A DNA stretch of 64,000 nt from Dyella sp. RRB7 (GTDB lineage Bacteria > Pseudomonadota > Gammaproteobacteria > Xanthomonadales > Rhodanobacteraceae). Numbering within the stretch: position 1 is the first letter of the stretch; each line of letters begins with the position of its first letter. The translations under genes were made by a program, and so were the position numbers. Shown here in pieces: positions 1 through 9,097 of the stretch. The notes below the pieces were generated by a model. It saw nothing but the letters and a program-made list of their open reading frames with translations, did not search any database and was not told where the DNA came from. The stretch lies in the NCBI RefSeq assembly GCF_022761115.1, contig NZ_JAKWJS010000010.1, positions 1 through 64,000 on the forward strand, read 5' to 3'.

Positions 1-314
1 TGCAAACTGCTCTTCGTCAACAGCCGCGGTCCTTGCAGACCGGGGGCGGACCATACATTTTTTCGAAGTGCCTCACGGGTCACCTCGATCTCCAGCATCG
101 ACTCGGCCAGCAGCTTCTTCAGCCGGGCGTTCTCGGTCTCCAGCTCCTTCAGCCGCTTGGCTTCGGGCACCGTCATCCCACCGAACTTGCTCCGCCACAG
201 GTAGTACGAGGCTTCACTGAAACCGTGCTTGCGGCAGAGGTCCTTCACCGCCACGCCGGCCTCTGCCTCGCGCAGGAAGCCAATGATCTGTTCTTCGGAA
301 AAGCGCTTCTTCAC
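1..314 (-). CDS. IS3-family transposase OrfA (partial)
   Basis: The frame opens with GTG at 314 and begins VKKRFSEEQIIGFLREAEAG, the usual start of IS3-family OrfA. A helix-turn-helix region (CRKHGFSEASYYLW) follows, then a leucine-zipper-like helix (LKELETENARLKKLLAE). OrfA binds the insertion-sequence ends and is usually joined to OrfB by a programmed -1 frameshift. A run of six A residues lies just after the EVTREALRK motif, where such a slip would be expected. Beyond it this frame stays open to base 1 but no longer looks like OrfA. The element may therefore be rearranged, or translation may switch frame there. The family assignment is firm; activity cannot be judged. Confidence 0.7.
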   Translation of the reverse strand, partial: MKKRFSEEQIIGFLREAEAGVAVKDLCRKHGFSEASYYLWRSKFGGMTVPEAKRLKELETENARLKKLLAESMLEIEVTREALRKNVWSAPGLQGPRLLTKSSL

Positions 315-381
315 GTCCAATCTCCGTCAGTTGTGGGATTGGACTCCAAATCGCTGCACTACTCAAAAGCGGGGGGACGTC
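1..381 (-). mobile_element. IS3-family insertion sequence, partial, leaving the left edge
   Basis: This block carries an OrfA-type reading frame on the minus strand. It sits inside a second IS3-type orfA that breaks off near base 380, so one insertion sequence appears to have landed in another. Only the orfA end is in the window; the catalytic DDE half (orfB) would lie left of base 1. The right boundary is approximate and was placed where the second orfA loses similarity. I could not define terminal inverted repeats or a target duplication with confidence. Confidence 0.55.
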
Positions 382-463
382 GCACGTCCTCGACGGGTGT
401 GCCCATCTCCGCCTGTTTCAGTGCGAACGCGATCTGCTCTTCGGTGAACTTTGACTTCTTCAT
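359..463 (-). pseudogene. Truncated IS3-family OrfA interrupted by another insertion
   Basis: An ATG at 463 with a strong ribosome site (AAGGAGG, 8-9 bases upstream) starts MKKSKFTEEQIAFALKQAEM, a typical IS3 OrfA N-terminus of a different subgroup from the neighbouring element. Similarity ends after about 27 residues, at GTPVEDV. The frame then runs into foreign sequence and stops at 34 codons. The break coincides with the edge of the other insertion sequence, so this is the stub of an element split by a later insertion. Confidence 0.7.
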
Positions 464-733
464 GGCGACGGGCCTCCTTGGGGCCGAAGTGTCGCCGAAT
501 TTTCTTGTTCTGGGCGAACCTGTTTAGCGGGAGGACGTCATTCGGGCAACAAGGCGACCAAGCGCCTCATGCCTCGGCCACAGCCATTACGAATGGGAGC
601 ACTCATTTGCCAGGCGAGGCGAACCTTCTCTTCACTGAGAGAAAAGTCCGCCTCGTGGCAGAGCCGGATGAGCTAACAACTCCGAAGCGGCGGGTTTTCT
701 CGCCATTGCACACCAAGATGGGAACGACTCCCT

Positions 734-2191
734 TCAGTCGCTGCGAGCTCCCGCAAGGAACGAATTGATCTCATGCGTGGCTCTACTGGCTAGCTGCCGC
801 TCAAGATCGCTTGCCTCGGCTCTTTTTTTCACCGAGTTGATCATCTTTCGGCCGATCTCAACCTCCAACTCTCTCTCCAGACGAACTATCGGAATGTCAG
901 CAACATCCGAAGGATCTAGATGGGGGATAGATGTTCCATAAGCATTGCGGATCACCAGCGGTCGGCCGAGATCGGGATGACCAAGGACGGTGAACAGATA
1001 CCCAGGATCAATCACTCGCTTGTCGGGGATGATGCGAACTAGGTCGTGAGAGAAGAAGGCTTGTTCATGCTCTTCCGTCATGAGCGCAACACTGCCATTC
1101 AAACCGTAGGTTTGCCCTGAGCACGCCATCACAATCCAACCAGCCTTCACGCGATAGTCGTCTGGATTATCCGCCTGCTCTACCAAGACTCGCTTGAGAC
1201 CCATGGTGTTAATTGAGAACAGCTCATCCGCACTCAGGTACGGCTCGCCGCCGTCGCCAAACACTCGCTTGAAGCGAGTTAGCCACCACACTGCTTCGGA
1301 TACCTCTGACAATGGCTGGGACTTCAGCTTTCGCTTGGTGAACTGACCGAGAATGGAAGTGGCAGCCGGCGTATGAAAGCTCGCTTCCAATCGCCTGCGT
1401 CTCTTAAAGAGCTCAGATGCAGCAACACTGAATCCGAGTTCCGCATCGGCGGTAGCGCGCACCTTTCCTACGGCGTTAGAAAGCAGGTCCTCGGCCTCCC
1501 GCTGAGACTCCCAAGCCTTGTTCCTGGCTTGGATGATCCTATTCCGCAGCTCGTCAAACTCGGACAGAATTGCCGGGTCTGGCAGCGGCACCGGCAATGA
1601 ACCGAGATGAGCTGGCTCCAGGTGTTTAATGACGTGGCCGTATTGCGCAGAAGTCATCATCGCGAGGGCTTGATCACTCCGCAGATAACCATATACCCAC
1701 CCCGCATACTTCTTCTCCAACGGATCCACACGCAAAAGGTCATCAGAAATGACTGCGCCCTCGTGAGGAGCATATGCGAGTATGCAGCGCCCGACGGTCC
1801 CGGAGCGGGTTACTAGCAGCTGACCAGCATTTACGAAGAGTTGCTCTGCATCCCGAGTCTTATCAAGCGCCAGATATTTTCGCGGGGTAGGACGTGAATC
1901 GAACACCTGTGTGGCAGCGAGGAATGGCCGACCATATTCCCGTGAAACCTGTATGCCCTTAAGGCGAGACGGCTGCCAAATGCGCGCAAGATCGTCTAGG
2001 CGAGCTCGTGAGCCAACCTGCGCCTCTAATGCCAGATGAATACCGTATCCGCCCGAAAGATAAGTTGCAGCCTCCATCCGTCTCTCACGTCCAAATAGAA
2101 CGGACGCAGGCAACGTCAACCAGCTCGGCTCATGCCATGTCTGCTTTTGTCGCTCCGGGCGCGGTGCGCTCAAGCGTGCTCGGATAGCCAT
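734..2191 (-). CDS. HsdS-like target-recognition subunit of a restriction-modification system
   Basis: This 485-residue protein has the two-fold layout of type I/IIB specificity subunits. A first target-recognition domain (about residues 50-205) ends in a helical spacer (roughly 210-245, LSEFDELRNRIIQARNKAWE). A second domain (about 255-440) is followed by a second helical spacer (about 445-475). In this family each domain reads one half of a split DNA site and the helices set the gap and bind the methylase. The start overlaps the end of the upstream nuclease-methylase gene by 22 bases, so the two are probably translated together. Downstream are about 270 bases of unassigned sequence, then IS3 debris. 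No HsdR helicase follows. Many codons end in A or T, unlike the core genes to the right. Confidence 0.8.
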   Translation of the reverse strand: MAIRARLSAPRPERQKQTWHEPSWLTLPASVLFGRERRMEAATYLSGGYGIHLALEAQVGSRARLDDLARIWQPSRLKGIQVSREYGRPFLAATQVFDSRPTPRKYLALDKTRDAEQLFVNAGQLLVTRSGTVGRCILAYAPHEGAVISDDLLRVDPLEKKYAGWVYGYLRSDQALAMMTSAQYGHVIKHLEPAHLGSLPVPLPDPAILSEFDELRNRIIQARNKAWESQREAEDLLSNAVGKVRATADAELGFSVAASELFKRRRRLEASFHTPAATSILGQFTKRKLKSQPLSEVSEAVWWLTRFKRVFGDGGEPYLSADELFSINTMGLKRVLVEQADNPDDYRVKAGWIVMACSGQTYGLNGSVALMTEEHEQAFFSHDLVRIIPDKRVIDPGYLFTVLGHPDLGRPLVIRNAYGTSIPHLDPSDVADIPIVRLERELEVEIGRKMINSVKKRAEASDLERQLASRATHEINSFLAGARSD

Positions 2192-4128
2192 TCCCTAAAT
2201 GCCTTCGCGATGTCCAGGGTATTGTCGTCAATGACCTTCTGAAGCGTCTTTTGAGTACGGTAGACGATTCGGCCGTTCTCGTACTCTTTCAGCTGCTCTT
2301 CGATCTCCTCAACGATCTCGTTGCCCTTCTTGTCTCTCACGTACGTCCTATTGCCCCGCTTATCGTGACCGATGTGATTTGCCACGGCCATGAACACTGG
2401 GTAGTTGGCTTGCGTACGCGCCGCACGCTCCAGAGCGATCTCTGCATCAGTTTTCCTCTCTAGCACGAGGAGGCTCGTTTGTACGCTGACGTTGGGTTGA
2501 AACGTATCAGGATGGAGATCAATAGAGGCCAAAACTCGCGTGTTCTCCAGAATCCATGCTCGGACGTACCCGAGCCCTGGAGACCCCAAAATGCCGTCGG
2601 GAAGGACCATTGCTACGCGACCGGTCCCTTGCTTCAGGAAGCGCACGCACCGTTCAATGAAGAGGATTTCCGGCGGCTGAGATTTCTGCACACCCTGAGT
2701 CTTCTCCCATCGGTCTTCACTTGAGTCGTAAGTCCAAATGTATCCAAGGTCGTACTTCTCCAAGATTGCGGGATCATCCACCGGAATCTTGGAGCCGAAG
2801 GGAGGGTTCGTGAAGATCAAATCGACCTTTCCCAGGAGCTCTCGATCGCGCAATGCATCAGGCCATATGGCGGGACTTGCCAGAGAGTTGGCCTGATAAA
2901 GTCCCCCGGCACCGTCATTGTTCATGACCATATTCATCTTGGTGGCTTTGACGAGTTCAGGATTGAAGTCAATACCAACGATAGATGCACCCGCATACTT
3001 CGCGATACGTGGAGCAACCTTTGGCTCCGCCCTGTTGTGGTTTCCCTTCCACTTTTCGAGCTCAGACGCCCTGATCTTTTCGATCACATGGTTCATTGCG
3101 GCAATGAGAAAACCGCCCGTACCGCATGCTGGATCCAAGACCAGCTGGTGCTCTTCCGGGTCGAGCATCGCAACAGCCATGTTGCAGACGTTGCGCGGCG
3201 TGAAGAACTCTCCCCGATCACCGCGGAGATTTGACCCTACGATCTCTTCGTACGCATGCCCCTTAACGTCCACATCGCTCTCAAGGAGCGAATACATCTG
3301 TAGTTGCGTGACGATGTACGCAAGTACAGGTGGATTCAAAGCAATGACGTCGTTGCCTTGAAAAATTGCAGGATATTCAGCTTTAACGACCTCAAAAAGC
3401 TTGTCGAGTCGTTTCTTGACCTTTAGCTGCCCATTTATGTTGGTCCGTTCGGACGCGCCCGCGAAAAATTCGACTTCAGTGCTGTCACGTTCGTCGTGAA
3501 TCTTGCAGAAGATAAGCTTAAGCAACTCCCAGAACGCTTGCGGCTTCTGCAGGCCCTGGTTTCCGGCGATGTAGTTATGACACCGACGAAAGGCGAACAG
3601 AAGAGCGTCTGAGGACGCTGGCTTGAGCTGATCGAATTTTGGCCGGTCAGAGTCATCAGGCGACTGTCCGAAGGTCGGTAGGTCGGGCACCTCCTCGAAG
3701 GTTACTCTTCCGCTACGAACAACTTTTCGGAAGCAGTGCCGCTCCAGGCCATTGGTCCACATTCCGAACTCAACATTTGGGCACGCCGCCATATAGCTCT
3801 GGAGTTGCCCAACACCTTCCTTACGGTCAGCAGCCTTGACCTTTTGCTCCTTGCACTCAACCACAATGTAGGCATTCGCCTGCTCGCGGCCGGATGATGG
3901 GTGAAAGACAACCAGGTCTGCCCGAGGCTTACGACTCCCTAGGCGAAGGGTAAATTCGACAGAGATGTCCGTGCGTGGATAGCCATACTCCCTAACGAGC
4001 GACTTCGAGATCTCTTGCCTTACATACTCTTCTGGCGTCTCAAGCCGCTGAGTAGAGCCGTCGATGAAATCGAGTACACGTCCCTGCTGGACAATGACTG
4101 CGACGTGCGACGCGGCGTTACCATGCAT
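2170..4128 (-). CDS. Fused PD-(D/E)XK nuclease and N6-adenine DNA methyltransferase
   Basis: The 652-residue protein joins two activities. Residues about 30-125 match the HsdR N-terminal nuclease fold (HSDR_N type), with Asp71 in PRADLVVF, Glu91 and Lys93 in VVECK, and a QxxxY motif (Gln108, Tyr112). Residues about 190-600 are an HsdM-type methylase with a GEFFTPR segment, the AdoMet motif DPACGTGG (332-339) and the catalytic NPPF (441-444). A nuclease-methylase subunit with a separate S subunit and no helicase is the layout of BcgI-like type IIB enzymes. Fused endonuclease activity here is inferred, not shown. The ATG at 4128 was chosen because GGGAG lies at the right distance. A longer GTG start at 4182 would add 18 residues. 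The neighbours are the S subunit (overlapping) and an integrase, so this is probably mobile-element cargo used for defence or self-maintenance. Confidence 0.8.
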   Translation of the reverse strand: MHGNAASHVAVIVQQGRVLDFIDGSTQRLETPEEYVRQEISKSLVREYGYPRTDISVEFTLRLGSRKPRADLVVFHPSSGREQANAYIVVECKEQKVKAADRKEGVGQLQSYMAACPNVEFGMWTNGLERHCFRKVVRSGRVTFEEVPDLPTFGQSPDDSDRPKFDQLKPASSDALLFAFRRCHNYIAGNQGLQKPQAFWELLKLIFCKIHDERDSTEVEFFAGASERTNINGQLKVKKRLDKLFEVVKAEYPAIFQGNDVIALNPPVLAYIVTQLQMYSLLESDVDVKGHAYEEIVGSNLRGDRGEFFTPRNVCNMAVAMLDPEEHQLVLDPACGTGGFLIAAMNHVIEKIRASELEKWKGNHNRAEPKVAPRIAKYAGASIVGIDFNPELVKATKMNMVMNNDGAGGLYQANSLASPAIWPDALRDRELLGKVDLIFTNPPFGSKIPVDDPAILEKYDLGYIWTYDSSEDRWEKTQGVQKSQPPEILFIERCVRFLKQGTGRVAMVLPDGILGSPGLGYVRAWILENTRVLASIDLHPDTFQPNVSVQTSLLVLERKTDAEIALERAARTQANYPVFMAVANHIGHDKRGNRTYVRDKKGNEIVEEIEEQLKEYENGRIVYRTQKTLQKVIDDNTLDIAKAFREWLSEHA

Positions 4129-4236
4129 TTTTTTGTTCTCCCAGTGCATGCTTTCGGCTAACCCCTCACTGTGCCACAGCACTCTTCGACAAACTACTGT
4201 AGGAAGAAAAATTCGAGTCTGGGCACATCACTTGCC

Positions 4237-4257
4237 CCTTTAGGTATTGCCTAAAGG
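4237..4257. promoter_or_regulatory. Perfect 8-bp inverted repeat upstream of the restriction-modification genes
   Basis: CCTTTAGG and CCTAAAGG are separated by five bases, about 110 bases upstream of the nuclease-methylase start. There is no U-tract, so an operator is more likely than a terminator. Restriction-modification genes are often timed by a controller or by the methylase itself, but no controller gene is visible here. Confidence 0.35.
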
Positions 4258-4353
4258 AGGTATACAGTTGCTTTTGCGGAAAATGCGAAGGTTCCGCCCA
4301 AACTCCACGACGCCCTCGAAGCGTCGGTACTGAGATCCTGATAGAAGGTCTCT

Positions 4354-5652
4354 CTAGCCAACCTTCAGCTGAAGCCTTTGCTCGTTGCTACCGATCTTCA
4401 GCTCTTCCAGATAGTCCGCCCAATCCTGCACGATTTCGCGGCGTTTATTGCGAAACTTCATACGCGCGTAGGCTGCCTCAGTCTCGTCTTTTGGAGCGTG
4501 CGCAAGCTGCGCCTCCAGGACATCAATTTCGATGCCTAATCGCTCACGTGCAATGGTTCGCAAGGTGGCTCGAAATCCGTGAGGCGTCTGCTCGCCACGA
4601 AACCCCATTTCGCGAAGAGCCTTGCTCAATGAATCTCTCGACAAGTGATTAGATTGCTGCCTAGCCTGCAGGGGAAAGGCATATTCCATCCCCTGGGTTC
4701 TCTGCAACATCTCCGCCAGAACCTCTTCAGCCTGCATGGGTAGCGATGTGCTGAAGTCCTTTCCCGTTTTCATACGATTCCGACCATCAGGCTCTTTGCC
4801 CGGAACATTCCATTCCCTGCTTTCCAAATTGATCTCTGACCAACGGGCACTAGCAACAACACCTGGACGCATCGCCGTCCATGCAGTCAGTAGGAGTGCC
4901 GCACGAACTACACGGTTCTCGTAAGCGTCAATGGCCCTCATTACATCACCCAGCCTGCTTTCGCTGTCCGTCACTGCCGGCATGTGACCAGCTTGACGAG
5001 TTGGCAGCAAGCGCTCCAACCTCAGAAGACTTTCCTCTCCACGCAGCCCCTCATCAATCGCCTGACCCACGATACGCCCGATGAACTGCTTTGCTTTGCG
5101 AGCAAGCTGGGGAGTACGCATGGCCATCTCCAAGAGAAGCGGCCGAACGTCACGGGTCGCCAAAGTACGCATATCCACATTACCGAGCCTCGGGATGAAA
5201 TAGGATTCCACGACAAGCTTAGCTTTGCGGTACGTTTGATCCGCCCACTGTGGCTGGCCAGCGACCAACCATCTCCGCGCCACAGCCCTCAGGGTGGCAT
5301 TCTCAGTCTCGGCGTCAGCCCGCTCCTTTTCGTCAATCCGCTCAGCGTCGAGCGAAGCGGCAATATGTCGTGCCTTGCGCACTCCAGGTGTTGCTATACC
5401 CTCTTTTGCGTCTCTCTGAATCTGGATGGCGCTGATCCGCGCTTCTGCGAGTGACATCGCCGAGTAGTAACCGATACTGGCTGGTGTGGCTGTTCTGCTA
5501 CCCGGGAGCCGATAGCGGACCACCCACGTCTTCAATCCAGCCTTGCTCACTTGCAGGTAGAGCCCTTTGCCGTCTGGGAGCGTGTAGGCCTTCTGCCTCG
5601 CTCTAGCATTGCGGACTTCCAACTCCGTTAGAGGCTTTGCGCGCTTAGGCAT
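4354..5652 (-). CDS. Tyrosine-type site-specific integrase of a tRNA-targeting element
   Basis: The 432-residue protein has an N-terminal arm-binding DUF4102-type domain (DGKGLYLQV, about 27-35). A core-binding region (about 118-215) and a C-terminal catalytic domain follow. The catalytic residues are visible as Arg262 (TAMRPG), His358-x-x-Arg361 (HGFR), His385 (LAHA) and Tyr395 (AYAR). It cuts and rejoins DNA at att sites. It starts 165 bases from the 3' end of a tRNA-Leu gene, the classic arrangement for elements that integrate in a tRNA 3' end. Its base composition matches the restriction genes rather than the core genome. All catalytic residues are present, so it is probably functional. 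Confidence 0.92.
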   Translation of the reverse strand: MPKRAKPLTELEVRNARARQKAYTLPDGKGLYLQVSKAGLKTWVVRYRLPGSRTATPASIGYYSAMSLAEARISAIQIQRDAKEGIATPGVRKARHIAASLDAERIDEKERADAETENATLRAVARRWLVAGQPQWADQTYRKAKLVVESYFIPRLGNVDMRTLATRDVRPLLLEMAMRTPQLARKAKQFIGRIVGQAIDEGLRGEESLLRLERLLPTRQAGHMPAVTDSESRLGDVMRAIDAYENRVVRAALLLTAWTAMRPGVVASARWSEINLESREWNVPGKEPDGRNRMKTGKDFSTSLPMQAEEVLAEMLQRTQGMEYAFPLQARQQSNHLSRDSLSKALREMGFRGEQTPHGFRATLRTIARERLGIEIDVLEAQLAHAPKDETEAAYARMKFRNKRREIVQDWADYLEELKIGSNEQRLQLKVG

Positions 5653-5722
5653 CAGCGGGGACCATCTTGTGTATGAAATCCATATTCATGCACAAGAGCA
5701 TACACAACATTCTGGGATCTAC

Positions 5723-5810
5723 TGAGACATCCTGAGAACAGCAGACACAAAAAACCCCGCAAAATGCGGGGTTTAGTGCGTTCCGTGGGACTCATTGAGA
5801 CTCCCTGAAA
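5723..5810. repeat. Two related 15-bp direct repeats between integrase and tRNA
   Basis: TGAGACATCCTGAGA (5723-5737) and TGAGACTCCCTGAAA (5796-5810) agree at 12 of 15 positions and lie 73 bases apart in the same orientation. They flank the tRNA terminator. Repeats like these beside an integrase can be arm-type binding sites; this is inference from position only. Confidence 0.35.
5748..5776 (-). terminator. Rho-independent terminator downstream of tRNA-Leu
   Basis: A 7-bp stem (CCCCGCA with TGCGGGG) closes a 3-base loop. On the minus strand it is followed by a run of six T. It lies 42 bases past the tRNA 3' end and would end the tpiA-secG-tRNA-Leu transcript before the integrase gene. An AT-rich flank on the other side means it could also work on the plus strand. 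Confidence 0.8.
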
Positions 5811-5817
5811 CTTCTAT

Positions 5818-5902
5818 TGGTGCCCAAGGGGGGACTCGAACCCCCACGCCTTACGGCGCTACCACCTCAAGGTAGTGCGTCTACCAATTCCGCCACCTGG
5901 GC
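5818..5902 (-). tRNA. tRNA-Leu (anticodon GAG)
   Basis: This is an 85-base cloverleaf with the long variable arm of class II tRNAs, a seven-base anticodon loop with GAG at its centre, a standard TTCGA T-loop and an encoded CCA end. The acceptor stem pairs GCCCAGG with CTTGGGC, with one weak pair. It follows secG by 11 bases on the same strand and is probably processed from the tpiA-secG transcript. Its 3' end is the likely attachment site of the adjacent element, whose insertion has left the gene intact. Confidence 0.97.
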
Positions 5903-5913
5903 AGGTGTCTTAC

Positions 5914-6366
5914 TTAGTTTTTCTTTGCCGGTTCCGTCGCGGCCGGGACATCGCCTGCAGGCTTGGCCGGGGCGGTGGCTGCCGGGACGTCGCCCTGGCT
6001 GGCCGTCGGCTTGGTGGCCTGCGGGATTTCCGGGTTGGCCGGCGCGGCGGGCTGCGCATTCTGCGTGGCCGCCGGCTTGTTGGCAAGACCCGCCATCACG
6101 CCAAGGCCGTTGCCATCACTGCCCTGCTCCGCACCATGGTGGCTCAGGTACATGCCCATGCCGAGGCTGAGGATGAAGAACAACGCGGCGAGCACTGCCG
6201 TGGAACGGGTCAGGAAGCTGGCCGAGCCGCGCGCCCCGAAAACGGTGGCGGAAGCACCGCCGCCGAAACCGGAACCCGCGTCCGCGCCGGCACCGCGCTG
6301 CATGAGGATCAGCACGATCATCGCCGCGGCGATCAGGATGTAAAAGACGCTGAAGATGACGAACAT
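5914..6366 (-). CDS. secG: Protein translocase subunit SecG
   Basis: SecG is the small third subunit of the inner-membrane SecYEG channel and assists SecA-driven export. The 150-residue product has two membrane helices (about 2-20 and 52-72) flanking the family's Gly/Ala-rich loop with FGGGASATVFGARGSA. After residue 80 it carries a Pro/Ala-rich tail with a repeated PAGDVPAAT-like motif. This tail is longer than in E. coli SecG (110 residues) but common in xanthomonads. The gene lies 24 bases after tpiA and 11 bases before tRNA-Leu, on the same strand. Confidence 0.95.
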   Translation of the reverse strand: MFVIFSVFYILIAAAMIVLILMQRGAGADAGSGFGGGASATVFGARGSASFLTRSTAVLAALFFILSLGMGMYLSHHGAEQGSDGNGLGVMAGLANKPAATQNAQPAAPANPEIPQATKPTASQGDVPAATAPAKPAGDVPAATEPAKKN

Positions 6367-6390
6367 GGTTCTCTAAAGAGTCCGTTGCGC

Positions 6391-7140
6391 TTAATGCGCC
6401 GCAGCGCAGATTCCCAGGAAGTCGGCTGCCACCAGCGAGGCGCCCCCGATCAGTCCTCCGTCAACGTCCGATTGCGCGAACAGGTCCGCTGCATTCGTCG
6501 CCTTGACGCTGCCGCCATAAAGCAGCCGGGTCAGACGGGCAATCATAGCATCTTCTTTTTCCAGTTGGCTACGGATGAACGCATGAACCTGTTGCGCCTG
6601 TTCCGGCGTGGCGGTGCAGCCGGTGCCGATGGCCCAGACCGGCTCATAGGCAATCACGGCGGTGTCGAAGCTGCCGATGCCATTCAACGCGATAACTGCC
6701 TGCAGCTGGCGTGCGATCACGGCCTCGGTCTGGCCCGCTTCGCGCTCGGCCAGCGTCTCGCCCACGCAGAGGATGGGAGTGAGGCCGCCGGCGCGCGCGG
6801 CGGCGAACTTGCGGGCCACCAGCGCGTCGCTTTCACCGTGGTACTGGCGACGCTCGGAATGTCCCACCAGCGTCCACTGCGCGCCGACGTCGGCCAGCAT
6901 GGCCGCGGATACTTCGCCGGTATAGGCACCCTGCCCGTCATGCTCGCTGACGTCCTGCGCGCCAAAGCCCAGGCCCGAGCCCACGTGCTGGCTGGCCAGT
7001 TCGCCCAGATAGGGGAACGGGGGAAACACCGCCACATCCATGGAGGAAGGCAAGGCGGCAATGATGTCGCCGACCAGCGCCGACGCCATACTGCGGCTGC
7101 CGTGCATCTTCCAGTTGCCTGCGACGAGTTTCTTTCGCAT
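6391..7140 (-). CDS. tpiA: Triosephosphate isomerase
   Basis: TpiA interconverts dihydroxyacetone phosphate and glyceraldehyde 3-phosphate in glycolysis and gluconeogenesis. The 249-residue barrel shows GNWKMHG at the N-terminus, catalytic His94 in GHSERR, catalytic Glu166 in YEPVWAIGTG, and the phosphate-binding LYGGSVK near the C-terminus. The ATG at 7140 gives the usual family length; the frame stays open upstream but that part has no similarity. It is the first gene of a tpiA-secG-tRNA-Leu unit and is divergent from a short-chain dehydrogenase gene. Confidence 0.97.
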   Translation of the reverse strand: MRKKLVAGNWKMHGSRSMASALVGDIIAALPSSMDVAVFPPFPYLGELASQHVGSGLGFGAQDVSEHDGQGAYTGEVSAAMLADVGAQWTLVGHSERRQYHGESDALVARKFAAARAGGLTPILCVGETLAEREAGQTEAVIARQLQAVIALNGIGSFDTAVIAYEPVWAIGTGCTATPEQAQQVHAFIRSQLEKEDAMIARLTRLLYGGSVKATNAADLFAQSDVDGGLIGGASLVAADFLGICAAAH

Positions 7141-7261
7141 GTCCCTATTCCATTGCAAATAAACGCAAAAGCTTAGCGAACGACCATGCCACTGGCAATG
7201 CATGACCGACAAGCCACTGTTGCCACGGCAAAAATCTGCAAAACCACAAAGAGACCACTTT

Positions 7262-8077
7262 ATGACCCCTGCCCGTCCGCTCACCCTGGTCACTGGCGCC
7301 TCTGCCGGCATCGGGGCCGCTTTTGCACGCGACCTCGCCGCACGCGGACATGATCTCGTGCTTACCGCGCGCCGCGTGGAGCGGCTGGAAGCCCTGGCCG
7401 ACGAGCTGCGTGCAGCACACGGCGCGACGGTGACGGTATGGCCGGCAGACCTGGCAGCCCCCGATGCCGTGCACCGTCTTTGCGACAGCCTCGCCGAACG
7501 TGGCCTTGAGGTGGACTGGTTGATCAACAACGCCGGCTATGGCGTCGCTGGCACCTTCGACGCCAATGAGTGGCCGGTGCATGAGGCCTTTATCCGCGTA
7601 CTGATGACGGCGCCGACCGAGCTGGCCTGGCGACTGCTGCCCGGCATGCGCCGGCGCGGCTATGGCCGCATCATCAATGTCGCCTCGCTCGCCGGCCACG
7701 TGCCGAGCTCGGCGGGGCATACGCTGTATGCGGCCAGCAAAGCCTACCTGATCAAGTTCTCGCAATCGCTGGCGCTGGAGAACCGCCACCTCGGCATTCA
7801 CGTGTGCGCGCTTTGTCCGGGCTTCACCTGGTCGGAATTCCACGACGTCACCGGCACGCGTGCACTGATGAACAAGTTGCCGGGCTTTATGTGGCAGACC
7901 GCCGAGGCCGTGGTCCGCGAGGGGCACGATGCGGTCGAGCGCGGTGACGTGGTGCATGTCACCGGCGGGGTGAACCGCTTTATCAAGGCGCTGATGAAGC
8001 TGCTGCCGGACCGGCTGACGCTGTGGCTGTCGGCGCGCGAGTCGAAGCGCTATCGGGATCTGGGGGAGCTGAGTTAA
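7262..8077 (+). CDS. Short-chain dehydrogenase/reductase (SDR family)
   Basis: This is a 271-residue NAD(P)-binding Rossmann protein. The cofactor motif TGASAGIG lies near the N-terminus, with NNAG in the middle and a catalytic Ser...YxxxK set (YAASKAY). The sequence resembles the DltE/YqjQ-like SDR group acting on unknown carbonyl or alcohol substrates. The ATG at 7262 was preferred because it places the Rossmann motif at the usual distance; an in-frame start at 7202 would add 20 unrelated residues. It stands alone, divergent from tpiA, and its substrate cannot be told from sequence. Confidence 0.85.
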   Translation: MTPARPLTLVTGASAGIGAAFARDLAARGHDLVLTARRVERLEALADELRAAHGATVTVWPADLAAPDAVHRLCDSLAERGLEVDWLINNAGYGVAGTFDANEWPVHEAFIRVLMTAPTELAWRLLPGMRRRGYGRIINVASLAGHVPSSAGHTLYAASKAYLIKFSQSLALENRHLGIHVCALCPGFTWSEFHDVTGTRALMNKLPGFMWQTAEAVVREGHDAVERGDVVHVTGGVNRFIKALMKLLPDRLTLWLSARESKRYRDLGELS

Positions 8078-8125
8078 CGGGCGAAAGCCGCTGGTATCCA
8101 GCAAGGGTTTCGCGGGCGCCTCCCA

Positions 8126-8151
8126 ACCCTCTCCCCCCAAGGGGAGAGGGT
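8126..8151. repeat. Intergenic palindrome CCCTCTCCCC/GGGGAGAGGG
   Basis: Two 11-base arms are separated by four bases. They lie between the convergent SDR and oxygenase genes. There is no T-run, so this is more likely a dispersed GC-rich palindrome of the kind common in xanthomonad intergenic DNA than a simple terminator, although it could stall both converging transcripts. Confidence 0.55.
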
Positions 8152-8161
8152 GCTGAAGGCT

Positions 8162-9097
8162 TTAGATCAGCTTGATTTCGCGTAGGCGCTGCAGCAGGTA
8201 CTCGTGCGAGGTGATGCTGGTGTCGTAGCGGCTCGGGTTGTCGGCCGTGACGGTCTGCGGCAACGGGTCGAGCACCACGTCCGGGTTCGGATGCAGGAAG
8301 TACGGCACCGAGTAGCGCGGCTTGCGGGCGTTGTCGTTCTGCGGGTTCACCACGCGATGCGAGGTGGACGGATACACGTGGTTGGTCAGGCGCTGCAGCA
8401 TGTCGCCGATGTTCACCACGATGGCGTCGCCTTCGGTGGTGATGGGCAGCCACTCGCCCTCGCGCGTCAACACTTCCAGGCCTTCGGCGCTGGCACCGAC
8501 CAGCAGTGTGATGAAGTTGATGTCCTCATGCGCGCCGGCGCGCACATTGGGGATGTTGTCTTCGGTGATCGGCGGGTAATGGATCGGGCGCAGGATGGAG
8601 TTGCCCTGGTCGATCTTGTCGTCGAAGTAATGCTCCGGCAGGTCGATATGCAGGGCCAGGGCACGCAGCACACGTGTGCCGAGCTGGTCCAGTGCCTCGA
8701 ACAGGCCGTAGCCATACTGCTGGAAATCCTGCACTTCCGCCGGCCAGATATTGGGCGGCATCACGTCGGCAAACTTCGAGTCGCGCGGAATCTCGCGGCC
8801 GATGTGCCAGAACTCCTTGAGGTCGGCGTACTTGCTGTCCTTGGCGGTTTCCACCTTGAACGGCGTATAGCCGCGGGCACCGCCGCTGCCGACGACGTGG
8901 TACTTCATCTTGGTGTCGGTGGGCAGCGCGAAGAAGCGCTGGAACGTGTCGTAGGCGCCGTCGATCAGCTCGCGCGGAATGCCGTGCCCGCTGATGCAGC
9001 AGAAGCCGTATTCGCGATAAGCGGCACCCAGCTCGGCGACGAAAGCGGCACGGTCGGTGTCATAACGACGGATGTCGAGGGTCGGAACTTTCTTCAT
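8162..9097 (-). CDS. Isopenicillin N synthase-like 2-oxoglutarate/Fe(II) oxygenase
   Basis: The 311-residue protein has the DIOX_N region at its N-terminus (PTLDIRRY, FVAELGAAYREYGFCCISGHG) and a 2OG-FeII jelly roll behind it. The iron ligands are visible as the His and Asp of AGAHEDINFITLL and the His of STSHRVVN, followed by the arginine-containing RYSVPYFLHPN that binds the co-substrate. Such enzymes hydroxylate or oxidise small molecules. Bacterial members of this group are widespread and mostly uncharacterised, so the substrate is unknown. The start at ATG 9097 gives the normal family N-terminus. It lies 93 bases downstream of glmM and may be co-transcribed. Confidence 0.88.
   Translation of the reverse strand: MKKVPTLDIRRYDTDRAAFVAELGAAYREYGFCCISGHGIPRELIDGAYDTFQRFFALPTDTKMKYHVVGSGGARGYTPFKVETAKDSKYADLKEFWHIGREIPRDSKFADVMPPNIWPAEVQDFQQYGYGLFEALDQLGTRVLRALALHIDLPEHYFDDKIDQGNSILRPIHYPPITEDNIPNVRAGAHEDINFITLLVGASAEGLEVLTREGEWLPITTEGDAIVVNIGDMLQRLTNHVYPSTSHRVVNPQNDNARKPRYSVPYFLHPNPDVVLDPLPQTVTADNPSRYDTSITSHEYLLQRLREIKLI

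Follow-up and report, generated by a model that had tools for sequence, protein, structure and literature searches.

A 64,000 bp stretch of the Dyella sp. RRB7 genome (contig NZ_JAKWJS010000010.1, positions 1 to 64,000), referred to below as the window, carries at positions 734-4182 two overlapping genes on the minus strand, the upstream one coding for a restriction-modification (RM) protein and the downstream one for a specificity (S) subunit. This cassette is genuine and intact, and it occurs widely. Judged from its sequence, it is best described as belonging to a new branch among type IIB-like enzymes of RM+S layout, the armed sister, i.e. with an intact nuclease triad, of the core formed by MAD2 and MAD5 in the larger, multi-gene phage defence system MADS (methylation-associated defence system). 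It is considered probable that the cassette is a stand-alone RM+S enzyme with a BcgI/BsaXI-like type IIB layout and, at the same time, related as an armed two-gene sister to the MADS core; its stoichiometry, methylation, cutting and phage restriction are predictions. The features of the cassette are listed below, where domain coordinates were computed from residue numbers, counted from the GTG codon at 4182.

2170..4182, minus strand: RM gene, encoding an HSDR_N_2 PD-(D/E)XK nuclease, a helical connector and an N6-adenine methylase; likely start at ATG 4128
3676..4035, minus strand: nuclease domain HSDR_N_2, residues 50-169, with D89, E109, K111, Q126 and Y130
2287..3273, minus strand: N6_Mtase domain, residues 304-632, with NPPF at 459-462
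734..2191, minus strand: S gene, 485 aa, ATG at 2191, with two homologous target-recognition halves and a 22 nt overlap with the RM gene

The RM frame ends with a stop codon at 2170-2172. The longest start, GTG 4182, gives a protein of 670 aa, and the alternative ATG 4128, corresponding to residue 19, one of 652 aa; the latter is the likelier start, because a GGGAG run is located just upstream. Pfam comparison confirmed the fusion of a PD-(D/E)XK nuclease to an N6-adenine methylase, which had been proposed in a first-pass annotation of the window: HSDR_N_2 matches residues 50-169 with an E-value of 8e-27 and N6_Mtase residues 304-632 with 3e-33. The nuclease residues indicated there, Asp71, Glu91 and Lys93 with a QxxxY motif, are real and correspond to D89, E109, K111 and Q126-Y130 in the numbering used here. 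The overlapping HsdS-like gene with two recognition halves was also correctly recognized. Its protein has no Pfam match of its own; Methylase_S matches 21 of the 46 members of the S protein alignment, the family profile hits type I S subunits of known structure, and its first and second halves, when compared, align with 100% probability (E-value 2e-51).

BsaXI (PDB 8w0p/8w2p/8w2q) was the top PDB match of the RM protein, both by sequence and by fold; the fold comparison is a VIA-align listing, where the nuclease part was barely tested and from which families not listed are not thereby excluded. Like the window pair, BsaXI joins an HSDR_N_2 nuclease, a helical connector and an N6-adenine methylase within one chain, accompanied by a separate S subunit with two halves, each made of a target-recognition domain and a CR part. 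All three triad residues are shared, since D89, E109 and K111 of the window protein align on D90, E105 and K107 of BsaXI, whose mutation abolishes cutting. The two proteins differ in size, BsaXI being 916 aa long against 670, with about 25% identity over the structural alignment. BcgI-type enzymes, the RM+S group of type IIB, have two recognition halves and a 2RM:1S composition, according to sections of PMC3874165, and a short C-terminal tail without knob or paddle (PMC11997821); the window pair is likened to them, by published description only, for its RM and S genes with two recognition halves, its short C-terminal tail and the lack of knob and paddle. The BcgI-like layout suggested earlier is supported. 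The same annotation held that a nuclease of the HsdR N-terminal type sets the cassette apart from type IIB enzymes, and regarded it as an intermediate between type I and type IIB. Both proposals were abandoned, because the N-terminus of BsaXI itself matches HSDR_N_2 with 39.7 bits (cut-off 25). As type IIB enzymes are already called 'motor-less' type I systems in a portion of PMC6158711, the cassette has a type IIB-like layout and needs no intermediate class.

Comparison with the NCBIfam models revealed a second kinship, which had escaped the first-pass annotation and is new in this analysis: by profile score, both genes are nearest to components of MADS. The best models are MAD2 for the RM protein (1.1e-202) and MAD5 for the S protein (8.9e-79), covering nearly the whole length of both. 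Both proteins score under the curated MADS cut-offs (674.9 vs 720 for MAD2, 265.4 vs 400 for MAD5), whereas MADS loci found on Piscinibacter and Hymenobacter plasmids contain MAD2 and MAD5 proteins above them. An overlap like that of the window pair also joins MAD2 and MAD5 in the MADS loci of Hymenobacter and Bacteroides. The window pair differs from the MADS core in that it is not accompanied by detected MAD3, MAD4, MAD6, MAD7 or MAD8 genes and has an intact triad, while the MAD2 triad is lost in 11 out of 11 MADS rows. A degenerate MAD2 triad was used in this analysis as a mark of MADS; the triad of the window protein is Asp-Glu-Lys (DEK). A reading of the window as a MADS locus, on the strength of the MAD2 and MAD5 models, was rejected, considering the scores under the cut-offs, the lack of detected effector genes and the DEK triad.

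The triad was evaluated on one alignment of 123 methylase proteins, after dropping proteins shorter than 430 aa (L045, L095, L154, L177). Among the 109 rows from loci without detected MADS genes, L067 and L077 have no letters at the sites, 105 have DEK, and L150 and L180 do not; DEK is therefore found in 105 of 107 readable rows, window included. These 105 rows take in more distant kin (L037, L038, L175, L176, L181, L182) and do not represent 105 independent cases, because some loci are repeated under two identifiers (e.g. L042/L138 and L037/L175). None of the 11 rows from loci with MADS genes has DEK, nor do three MADS-like rows, kept apart, from contigs ending beside the gene (L147, L149, L152). 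In the MADS rows the first Asp is retained in 7 cases out of 11, Glu and Lys in none. Their triads are mutually unlike (DVE, EVN, AQA, DLR, GLA, DIA, DQR, DID, PAE, DIF), as sites no longer under selection would be. An EPK found near the site in two MADS rows (L043, L171) was not counted as intact, because their kin have EPN and EPQ. The QxxxY motif follows the same split, being kept in the DEK rows, while the methylase NPPF is retained in all readable rows of both groups. The domain as a whole behaves similarly: at 45-55% methylase identity, nuclease conservation was 0.28 for MADS pairs vs 0.45 for stand-alone pairs, and the difference had the same direction in three other identity bins (of the 109 rows lacking detected MADS genes, this comparison covered 97). 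The catalytic lysine, for which the first-pass annotation had considered mutation in close relatives, is kept in 105 of the 107 readable rows outside detected MADS loci. The kinship of the two branches and the split of the triad between them are demonstrated by this analysis.

Related pairs are found in a wide range of genomes. A scan of species genomes detected at least 80 loci, in organisms from many phyla, and a scan of viral contigs 26 loci. In 93 of 96 related loci the RM gene is adjoined by an S-like gene on the same strand, so that the pairing is not due to chance; in 83 the two genes overlap, by 4-97 nt, and the three loci without an S-like gene (L060, L070, L095) either lie at the edge of a contig or are broken. 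MAD3, MAD4, MAD6, MAD7, MAD8 and EcoKI-like HsdR were absent from the examined flanks of all 96 loci (L049-L144); the flank reached 4 kb or more on one side in 82 of them, and on both sides in 47. From the lack of detected MADS genes in the flanks of related loci, together with the split of the triad, it follows that the two-gene cassette is an armed relative of the MADS core. Close relatives of the same pair, with about 50-62% identity and scores below the MADS cut-offs, are carried by plasmids and by one prophage; an Arthrobacter copy is devoid of the nuclease end. A nearer relative is the pair of Fulvimonas sp. R45 (L050), with about 75% identity in the RM protein. The prophage is prophiGD51-2 of Mycobacterium abscessus, where an armed pair (L042:7962-11305) sits between the terminase side and the primase/polymerase genes, which indicates that the cassette is also carried by phages. 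Around the host, the RM chain matched 3 of 61 genomes (host and 60 relatives) at 1e-40, i.e. the host itself and two genomes with 32-36% identity, and no match was found at this threshold in the 19 other genomes of the genus. MAD2 matched only the host among 369 genomes of the class, and MAD7 matched 7 of 398 genomes of the phylum, 3 of them above its cut-off.

Three other explanations were weighed against a stand-alone enzyme. The pair could be a remnant broken off a full MADS locus, whose effectors were removed or displaced by an insertion sequence (IS) element, and could now only methylate. The best family models, MAD2 and MAD5, would agree with this, as would the kinase gene that directly follows MAD5 in three MADS loci, while IS-like sequence starts here about 200 nt past the S gene. 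The effectors, on the other hand, were not traced: MAD7 had no match in the host genome, although the same model does match in other genomes, MAD6 had only matches far below cut-off (best 90.7 vs 460 bits), and MAD8 had none in the contig ends, to which its search was limited. The scores under the MADS cut-offs (shared, for MAD2, by one true MADS protein), the position of the window inside the stand-alone group in the methylase-part trees, the intact triad, unlike that of all 11 MADS rows, and the lack of detected MADS genes beside all 96 pairs of the same kind make a remnant very unlikely. Scarcely any probability is given to a type I system using an hsdR product encoded elsewhere in the genome as its motor, with the N-terminal nuclease as an auxiliary. 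The S and M parts do resemble HsdS and HsdM of type I systems (EcoKI, StySJI and others), by sequence for both and also by fold for the methylase; in the window, however, the nuclease is fused to the methylase, and the hsdR motor-nuclease subunit of type I systems was not found. Neither hsdR (TIGR00348) nor the SWI2_SNF2 motor domain (PF18766) had a match in the host genome, a 4.08 Mb draft of 19 contigs rated 100% complete, while each model matched in 10 of 14 control genomes; the description of the cassette as helicase-less thus stands, and the distant hsdR partner that had been envisaged as an objection to it was not detected. EcoKI-like HsdR is likewise missing around the 96 loci, and the first 25 of 107 Pfam families, obtained from 47 of the 50 flanking open reading frames (ORFs) of at least 700 codons (the three longest were left out), include no HsdR family.

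A modification or regulatory methylase, in which the nuclease domain serves for DNA binding only, is also unlikely. The top PADLOC model for the RM chain is named type II methyltransferase, and the lost residues in the nuclease domain of the MADS relatives make a non-cutting role conceivable. This must be set against a triad that persists in many phyla (105 of 107 readable rows), with QxxxY in the same rows, and against a nuclease domain under stronger constraint than in MADS. For the stand-alone RM+S enzyme speak the traits of the type IIB RM+S group found in the window: nuclease and N6-adenine methylase in one chain, a separate S subunit with two recognition halves, PD-(D/E)XK residues intact with the exception of the position of BsaXI E73, and no match to a motor subunit in the open draft genome, five small contigs of which were masked.

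Several observations weigh against this assignment. By sequence alone, the nuclease stretch is weakly similar to that of BsaXI (11.4 bits, i-Evalue 0.63). Counting the register by hand, BsaXI E73, essential for cutting, aligns with S74 of the window protein, while the nearly invariant E76 of the latter aligns with BsaXI E75, whose mutation is tolerated. BsaXI has a knob and a paddle, for which the window protein is too short, and the paddle is needed for BsaXI cutting. The MADS cut-off is not a clean divider, because MAD2 from a MADS locus of genome G090 (L173) also misses 720, with 696.4. The triad is lost without detected MADS genes in L150, where the contig is cut beside the gene, and in L180, where no S gene was found. 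The five masked contigs, 4.5 kb together, stayed outside the searches, and the island carrying the cassette runs into a contig break inside an IS element, with its far side unseen. Finally, cleavage, a methylated motif and phage restriction are predicted for the cassette from sequence data. L180 (9875-12091) is a lone RM-related gene on a Streptomyces plasmid, with no S or MADS genes found beside it; it is possibly a further disarmed branch.

If the cassette works as a stand-alone RM+S enzyme, one S chain would read a split sequence and probably hold one RM chain on each of its halves, and each RM would methylate an adenine in its own half-site, using S-adenosylmethionine. At sites unmethylated on both strands, the N-terminal PD-(D/E)XK domains would cut the DNA nearby, without an ATP motor. 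The MAD2-MAD5 pair of MADS would correspond to this RM-S core in a form with a disarmed nuclease. MADS would thus gain a simple relative, with recognition, marking and, by its residues, cutting contained within two genes, and the origin and work of the MADS core become testable by comparing armed and disarmed pairs. In addition, a broad group of putative type IIB-like enzymes is added, members of which could be useful as site-specific cutters.

The history of the disarming was followed on trees of the methylase part. In a tree of 48 rows with outgroup, a single change of triad state is needed, the MADS fork has a support of 82, and the outgroup is armed. After removal of four long rows (44 rows), the free tree requires two changes of MADS label, and constraining MADS to one clade gives an equally good tree (log-likelihood 0.45 higher, p 0.54 in the AU test). 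A single loss is therefore compatible with the data and not proved by them. Most simply, the ancestor would have been an armed RM+S enzyme, disarmed only once, where MADS branches off; this history is based on 11 MADS loci, some of them closely related. On balance it is favored that MADS descends from a type IIB-like enzyme of two genes, self-sufficient at first, whose nuclease was disarmed: the RM-S core would have been kept as reader and writer of methylation, and destruction handed to newly joined genes (the ATPase forming the C-terminal part of MAD6, MAD7, MAD8 and, later, a NERD-kinase part), while the armed branch would survive in the window cassette and its kin (96 loci). This would explain the presence of a nuclease fold in MAD2 alongside the unexplained restriction step of MADS, the mechanism of which is listed as unknown in a section of a 2026 review (PMC12904381), and predicts that MAD2-MAD5 alone methylates and never cuts. 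Neither a dead MAD2 nuclease nor an armed stand-alone relative was described in the titles and abstracts searched, a set from which most subscription journals and all preprints were missing.

The MADS loci used for comparison showed further features. In nine of them, including L043:15360-19535 and L044:13347-17486, MAD6 starts with a NERD-like stretch, followed by kinase and ATPase parts; ExD and (D/E)xK are invariant in the stretch in 9 out of 9 aligned proteins, one of which was tested with Pfam NERD. The stretch is a candidate for the MADS nuclease. A swap of the nuclease from MAD2 to the NERD-like stretch of MAD6 was considered and rejected: L145 and L173 have a dead MAD2, yet match MAD6 in its C-terminal part only, so that the disarming of MAD2 came without, or before, the gain of NERD and is not explained by the swap alone. 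These two (L145:4561-16551, L173:8907-20000) are compact MADS-like loci with the order ATPase (C-terminal part of MAD6), MAD7, nuclease-dead MAD2, MAD5 and MAD8, which differs from that of other MADS loci, and without kinase or NERD match. One MADS locus contains tandem MAD2-like methylase genes ahead of MAD5 (L146:7797-12004). MAD7 of L044 (17499-19088) also matches the PADLOC SspG model (8.8e-12), which hints at a link between the MADS effectors and the Ssp phosphorothioate system. Two scans of viral contigs with MADS queries brought no additional contigs.

The surroundings of the cassette support the earlier suggestion that it is carried on an integrative element. The pair lies on DNA of foreign appearance, with a GC content of 0.54 where the remainder of the window has 0.66, and the following features are located beside it.

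4354..5652, minus strand: tyrosine integrase of the carrying island (Arm-DNA-bind_3 and Phage_integrase)
5818..5902, minus strand: tRNA-Leu(gag), with its 3' end towards the integrase; the island probably inserted here
1..530, minus strand: IS3-like orfA at the contig end, within an apparent second orfA remnant (IS label and remnant assigned by eye, without a family call)

A second copy of the tRNA 3' end was not found in the contig ends examined or in the first 88 kb of contig C1, where only short, chance-like matches were present. Elsewhere in the genome, window positions 1-450 had three partial matches (70-81%) and no full copy. Since the contig ends inside the IS3-like element, the DNA beyond the window start lies on another contig. 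The low-GC start of contig C1 of the host (positions 4250-8579) could represent the other side of this island; it contains a UvrD-type helicase ORF adjoining an AAA_15 ATPase ORF, an arrangement which by eye is Gabija-like (L006, L198).

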